This document shows, piece by piece, positions 40,172-41,290 of a stretch of 64,000 nt of DNA. The stretch's first letter is position 1. Every line of letters starts with the position of its first letter. The notes under the pieces are model-generated. The model was not told the DNA's origin, searched no databases, and saw only the letters and a program-made list of their open reading frames with translations. Location of the stretch: the NCBI RefSeq assembly GCF_006352025.1, contig NZ_CP040936.1, positions 3,040,001 to 3,104,000 of the forward strand, read 5' to 3'. Origin of the DNA: Hymenobacter sp. DG01. Lineage in GTDB: Bacteria > Bacteroidota > Bacteroidia > Cytophagales > Hymenobacteraceae. Made by a program: the position numbers and the translations under genes.

Positions 40172-41214
40172 ATGAAAAGGACACTTCGCTCCCTCACGCT
40201 TGCTCTTGTTGTTGCTACCACGTTTTCTGCCTGCGGCAGCAAAGACACAGCGGCCGAAACCACCACTGAGACTCCATCAGTAGCCACCACAACAACGGAG
40301 CCAGCCACCACAACGCCAACCGCAGAGGAAACACCTACTGCTTCGGCCGCAAGTTTTGATATCAATACTGTCCCGGTTTCCAGCGCCAACCTGGGCCAGT
40401 TCCCGTACCTGAGCGCCTTGAAAGGCTACGAAGAAAACACCAGCAACAGCGAGGACTACGACTTCGAGCGGGCCTACGTGTTCGATGGCAAAAGCCTGAT
40501 ACCAGTAGAGGGCAAAGTGTCGCAGCGGCTGTTCGACGAGCAGAATGGCGAGAAAAAAGCCTCTGAGCTGATGATTCAGCGGAACTATGAAACTTTACTT
40601 AAGGAGCTGGGCGCTGTAAAAGTGTTTTCCGGTGAGATTCCTCAGGAAGCCATTGATAAGGTTGGATCGGGAGAAGTGTATAAGCACAACAAGTGGAGCC
40701 TGAGCCCTGACCACGAAACATCTATCTATGTTATCCGCCAGAAGGACAAAGAAGTGTGGGCGCTGGTAACTGCGCTGGGCGGCGACGGTAACTACAACAT
40801 CACCATGATTGAGCGCGCCGCTATGCCCCAGCAGGCCACCATCATCAAAGCCGACGAGTTAAAAAAAAACTAGATACGGATGGGCGCGTGGCCCTCTACG
40901 TGAACTTCGACACCGACAAGGCCACCATCCGGCCTGAGTCGGAGCCGACGGTGGCCGAGGTACTCACGCTGCTGCAGCAGAACCCGAAGCTGCGCCTGGC
41001 CGTGCAGGGTCACACCGATAACGCCGGTACCAGCCAGCACAACCAGCAGCTTTCCGAAGCGCGGGCAGCGGCCGTGGTGGCCTCCCTCAGCCAAGCCGGT
41101 ATTGCCGCTGCTCGTCTGCAAGCCGCCGGATTCGGCCAAACCAAACCGCTGGCCGATAACTCTACTGAAGAAGGCAAAGCCAAAAACCGCCGCGTGGAGC
41201 TCGTGAAGCTATAA
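40172..41214 (+). pseudogene. OmpA-family lipoprotein gene with frameshift at an A9 run
   Basis: Two adjoining frames make one protein. The first (40172-40873) has a lipoprotein signal with Cys21-like F-S-A-C-G, a Thr-rich linker and a periplasmic domain ending ADELKKN-stop. The second (open from before 40888 to 41214) gives the OmpA peptidoglycan-binding domain (LYVNFDTDKATIRPES, QGHTDNAGTSQHNQQLSEARA, KNRRVELVKL). They are joined at 40861-40869, nine A residues. A tenth A, or a -1 slip, restores ADELKKKLDTDGRVALYVNFD, the continuous sequence seen in homologues, as a 347-residue protein. It is either a true mutation, a phase-variable or slippage site, or a sequencing error. Confidence 0.85.
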
Positions 41215-41235: not shown

Positions 41236-41272
41236 AAAAAGCCCTTCTGCTTCATAGCAGAAGGGCTTTTTT
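41236..41272. terminator. Bidirectional intrinsic terminator
   Basis: 16-bp perfect stem (41236-41251 with 41256-41271) between convergent genes, A5 on the left and T6 on the right. Confidence 0.9.
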
Positions 41273-41290
41273 GTGCTATAATCGTTCACA

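Follow-up and report, generated by a model that had tools for sequence, protein, structure and literature searches.

How does the cell read a gene in which a putative lipoprotein ends at a stop codon directly behind nine adenines, while a peptidoglycan-binding domain lies open beyond it in the -1 frame? The 5.04 Mb genome of Hymenobacter sp. DG01, in two contigs, carries such a split lipoprotein/OmpA gene at positions 40172-41214 of the window, by which we mean the whole 64,000-nt stretch that was analysed (positions 3,040,001 to 3,104,000 of NZ_CP040936.1). An earlier note had read the A9 run as a candidate site of programmed slippage yielding a short and an OmpA-anchored form, or of phase variation, with sequencing error as the main rival. 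Here we compare the junction across related genomes and conclude, with high confidence, that the run is a conserved site of predicted programmed recoding, through either polymerase slippage or a -1 ribosomal shift. The gene very probably makes both proteins.

Results

Layout of the split gene

All features lie on the forward strand. The zero-frame ORF (40172-40873) starts at an ATG at 40172, encodes a 233-aa putative lipoprotein ending in ..ELKKN and is closed by a TAG at 40871-40873, directly 3' of the A9 candidate recoding site at 40861-40869. The letters at 40856-40873 are GAG TTA AAA AAA AAC TAG, preceded by a GAC codon. Read in the zero frame, the run and the next base contain two overlapping -1 heptamers, A_AAA_AAA and A_AAA_AAC, so the site is also a perfect ribosomal slip site, a point absent from the earlier note. 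The coordinates and arithmetic of that note were correct: the run is nine A long, and adding one nucleotide there gives 347 codons plus a stop. The OmpA domain (PF00691) occupies 40870-41214 in the -1 frame, with 114 codons and a stop at 41212-41214. Beyond the OmpA stop, 41238-41278 can form a hairpin with a T-rich tail, a likely intrinsic terminator; it was found by a dedicated hairpin script and was missing from the generic terminator scan. Both strands of the genome together hold 10 distinct runs of at least nine A (seven A9 and three A10).

The 233-aa half begins with a signal-peptide-like stretch and a lipobox-like ..TTFSAC-G; a linker rich in Thr and Ala leads from there to a folded domain. 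Cys-21 is nearly invariant in the orthologue alignment, and we class the protein as a putative lipoprotein. Profile-model and fold matches suggest that the folded domain is PsbP/DcrB-like. Named short database entries carry the labels hypothetical protein, lipoprotein or uncharacterized protein, with one DUF1795, and all are without the OmpA half.

The match to PF00691 in the -1 frame is strong (E 1e-23; 84 bits against a cut-off of 27.2). In all 33 frame-shifted orthologues with an A9 run, this frame is open for at least 113 codons and the TD and LS..RA residues are invariant; we take the Asp of TD and the Arg of LS..RA to be the peptidoglycan-binding residues of the OmpA-like domain. In each of the seven pairs computed, dN/dS was below 0.3 for the OmpA half, which indicates purifying selection on it. 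Under a strict rule, 19 of 35 loci have a T-tailed hairpin 3' of the OmpA domain, and none of the 35 has one within 200 nt after the A9 site, as would fit a single transcript across both halves.

Conservation of the junction

A search with the 233-aa half returned 44 matches in 120 genomes of the genus and 54 in 204 genomes of the family. We read 39 orthologous junctions, comprising 38 matches at 48% identity or more and one 53-residue fragment. In 33 of these the run is exactly A9 and leads directly into CTAG (32) or TTAG (1), and OmpA lies in the -1 frame; two of the 33 come from a sister genus, one being Solirubrum puertoriconensis (L166). Three others (G092, G075 and G035) have A8 and then CTAG, so that the 36 frame-shifted orthologues comprise 33 with A9, three with A8 and none with A10. 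Two copies from MAGs (G094, whose contig ends inside OmpA, and G093) continue in frame yet retain A8 or A9, and these are the only two of the 39 in which the letters TAG, present in the other 37, are absent. The remaining orthologue, in G018, is decayed and carries other stops. Within short flanks, prmA lies beside 33 and tpiA beside 24 of the 39. The earlier note had held that orthologues lacking the homopolymer would speak against its reading. Such junctions were found only in a paralogue clade and in the decayed G018 copy; as regards the frame, the two in-frame MAG copies also depart from its reading. A9 with the TAG behind it is kept by 33 of 39 orthologues.

The same end recurs in a separate protein database, where 103 of the 120 relatives listed, out of 138, terminate in ..[LIM]KKN. 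The rest of those listed comprise four that run on as KKT.. (A8-like), four that are OmpA-fused, four that end in KAN or KSN and five other or partial entries, among which P0076 also ends in KKN. The KAN or KSN entries (P0032, P0034, P0038 and P0085) stop at the same place without an A-run and are perhaps short-only lineages.

A search of the 204 family genomes for the pattern TA-A9-[CT]TAG gave 46 places, of which 33 are the lipoprotein/OmpA gene as matched by coordinates; six of the other 13 were inspected and seven were set apart by position only. Since a reversed control pattern gave about 39 matches in the same genomes, the evidence against a chance occurrence lies in the orthologous position and not in the raw pattern count.

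Selection on the run and the stop

Substitutions were counted on a tree (length 8.2) that took in all 39 loci, without choosing rows by their state at the site. The Leu/Ile codon that precedes the run changed 12 times at its first base, which is T in 15, C in 16 and A in two of the 33 A9 orthologues. The third base of this codon, which is the first A of the run, changed once, in the in-frame copy L019. The codon that follows the run shows one third-base change, in the in-frame copy L024; the G of TAG likewise changed once, in L019. Because these changes are confined to L019 and L024, the loss of run and stop is limited to copies with a restored frame. For comparison, 95 conserved degenerate codons elsewhere showed a mean of 7.4 third-base changes, with one change or none in only three, and 64 of 851 Leu codons elsewhere end in A. 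A version on the 33 A9 rows gave 11 first-base against no third-base changes, a count that is partly circular. Together with the constraint on the OmpA half, this pattern of substitution indicates that the run, the stop and the OmpA domain are kept by selection, and the short and the anchored product are probably both used.

Ancestry

The genus also contains a paralogue clade of 14 loci, about 29-40% identical, in which OmpA is fused in frame. The paralogue junctions contain at most six consecutive A, and in 14 of 14 there is no A-ending codon before the junction. Other in-frame fusions occur in four loci of another genus and in three Cytophagales loci (L231, L232 and L234). The tree places the frame-shifted clade as derived, with a branch support of 0.83; both in-frame copies fall within it, as do the two A8 orthologues that were on the tree. 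Two further Cytophagales loci, L235 and L236, encode the N domain as stand-alone proteins of 213 and 229 aa, and no OmpA motif was found in the listed frames surrounding them. As both the short and the long form are ordinary genes in relatives, the frame-shifted clade appears to encode at one locus what others encode separately.

The dnaX gene of the genus

The dnaX gene of the same strain (L078, L114), which lies outside the window, carries A10 at codon 421 out of 721 (G000:C1:2876000-2876009) with early stops in both shifted frames, and looks like a case of Thermus-type slippage giving tau and gamma. Among 30 dnaX loci read across the genus, 28 have A10 and two have A11. The -1 frame meets a stop within 3-4 codons in all 30 and the +1 frame within 4-6 codons in 24. 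The same double-stop layout is described for Thermus dnaX in PMC5009743. Such an arrangement points to slippage, since a -1 shift of the ribosome would have no use for the second stop.

Discussion

Polymerase slippage or ribosomal shifting

We consider RNA-polymerase slippage on A9 the probable mechanism, with confidence well short of firm. The polymerase would slip on the nine A:T pairs, and some mRNAs would gain one A or lose two. Unslipped mRNA would be translated into the 233-aa lipoprotein ended at the TAG; slipped mRNA would give a 347-aa lipoprotein with a peptidoglycan-binding OmpA domain. A single gene would thus supply free and wall-anchored lipoprotein in proportions set by the run. 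Of the proposal in the earlier note, programmed slippage that yields the two products has good support from conservation.

The main rival is programmed -1 ribosomal frameshifting on A_AAA_AAA or A_AAA_AAC, with the mRNA remaining A9, which we regard as possible but rather doubtful. The heptamers are perfect and in the correct frame, and 32 of the 33 A9 runs are followed by C. Ribosomal shifting usually, although not always, relies on a stimulator, and none was detected in the orthologue alignments. There was no conserved RNA structure (alignment-fold z between -0.25 and -1.27 on the downstream side of the site and close to 0 on its upstream side), no suppression at synonymous sites, and no conserved Shine-Dalgarno-like element upstream, where codon columns -9 to -5 are variable. 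The absence of a conserved RNA stimulator, the constraint on the whole run and the slippage-type A10 of dnaX each favour slippage. According to part of PMC9976891, ribosomes of Bacteroidia do not recognise SD sequences, which makes SD stimulation unlikely here and likewise favours slippage. Against this, a proven A_AAA_AAC cluster is without an established stimulator, a statement that the relevant part of PMC4066793 cites to work on IS1.

Codon usage at the site bears on the same choice. In E. coli, shifting is far more frequent on A_AAA_AAG than on A_AAA_AAC or A_AAA_AAA (PMC5009743), and AAG, the shiftier codon there, is used at the site in none of the 36 frame-shifted orthologues. Only a UUU tRNA-Lys was found, as two copies among 42 tRNA genes read in a list that is incomplete, since it is without tRNA-Ile; E. 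coli is likewise a one-isoacceptor organism, and this similarity supports the ribosomal reading. The first A of the run is conserved although A_AAA_AAC has no need of it, which favours slippage. However, A_AAA_AAA starts at that first A, so the ribosomal reading also accounts for its conservation.

The direction of the shift gives a further comparison. As stated in part of PMC3711429, orthologues that shift in either direction are a sign of transcriptional realignment, whereas a single direction is a sign of ribosomal shifting. The needed direction is identical in 33 of 36 frame-shifted orthologues, as the ribosomal reading would have it, and the three A8 orthologues need the other direction. 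These three may be recent changes or assembly errors. The A8 in G092 in particular may be an assembly error, since the dnaX of G092 is also broken; prmA and tpiA next door are intact. Additionally, the frame entered on losing one A, which is also that of an A8 mRNA, has no conserved early stop, unlike dnaX; this counts against slippage and for the ribosome. The four of 120 listed relatives that end without an A-run also weigh against slippage.

Other explanations

In phase variation by replication slippage, cells with A9 would make the short form and cells that had switched to A10 or A7 the long one. Surface lipoproteins are known targets of such switching, and the length of the run can change, as the three A8 runs among the 39 orthologues and the four KKT.. 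ends among the 120 listed relatives illustrate. A random switch should nevertheless leave ON alleles common among species. Instead, A9 is almost the only length seen in the 36 frame-shifted orthologues, none of which has A10, and the adjacent TAG is kept. We therefore disfavour this part of the earlier note and consider phase variation improbable.

Homopolymers are error-prone and the G018 orthologue is degraded, so that a sequencing error or a decaying pseudogene had to be weighed. Because 33 separate genomes carry the same A9, and their OmpA frame is open and constrained by purifying selection, this is very improbable, and sequencing error, which the earlier note had ranked as its main rival, is ruled out as a general explanation. 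Least credible of all is that the OmpA part is a second gene translated by re-initiation or coupling: there is an in-frame GTG at 40888, but the first 25 OmpA-frame codons hold no ATG in any of the 33 A9 orthologues and no ATG, GTG or TTG in 18 of them, a separate piece would be without a signal peptide, and relatives outside the clade are mostly in-frame fusions.

Comparison with known systems

A close parallel to the predicted slippage is dnaX of Thermus thermophilus, also a cellular gene with A9 in its sense strand and two products that differ at the C terminus (PMC1088944 and PMC5009743). In Thermus it is the long product that unslipped mRNA yields, whereas in the Hymenobacter gene it would be the short one; the alternative segment is a polymerase tail instead of an OmpA anchor, and slippage in the Hymenobacter gene is a prediction. 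In Shigella mxiE, as in our gene, one inserted nucleotide joins a short zero-frame ORF to a second ORF (PMC1088944, in part), but the run is of U and the product is a transcription activator, not a lipoprotein. IS1 shares the A_AAA_AAC heptamer, the direction and the want of an established stimulator (the same part of PMC4066793); it is a mobile element, and the Hymenobacter run is extended to nine A. The GeneTack programmed-frameshift clusters, such as magnesium chelatase, similarly consist of two ORFs joined over poly-A, and in E. coli 40% shifting was obtained with a 9-A cassette, as reported in PMC3711429. The long product itself resembles Pal and other OmpA-like lipoproteins (PF00691) in combining a lipid anchor with a peptidoglycan-binding domain, which in Hymenobacter would be added only after recoding.

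Bacterial programmed frameshifting is known mostly from mobile genes, according to part of PMC3711429, the main text of which makes no mention of OmpA, the outer membrane or Cytophaga. Our literature search, which left most subscription papers outside its scope, returned no report of frameshifting that decides the cell-wall anchor of a lipoprotein. Searches combining slippage, programmed frameshift and OmpA, or Hymenobacter, frameshift and OmpA, found nothing, and a broader search had no Hymenobacter among the matches listed. The A9 run with its adjacent stop offers a compact site to tell transcriptional from ribosomal slippage in Bacteroidota.

More speculatively, Hymenobacter and its sister genus might use polymerase slippage as a standing expression device, an idea that we put forward tentatively and consider unlikely on balance. 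If it held, the A9 of the lipoprotein gene would set the ratio of free to anchored lipoprotein and the A10 of dnaX that of tau to gamma, and envelope anchoring could be tuned through the polymerase's state or the ATP pool.

Two smaller observations concern the junction. The in-frame G094 copy (L019) keeps A9 and has CTAA after the run; the loss of one A would give it the same ..KKN stop, which is a reversed, Thermus-like layout. Finally, all 33 A9 orthologues have GCC for the Ala codon at 40850-40852, which precedes the junction by four codons; this may be chance.
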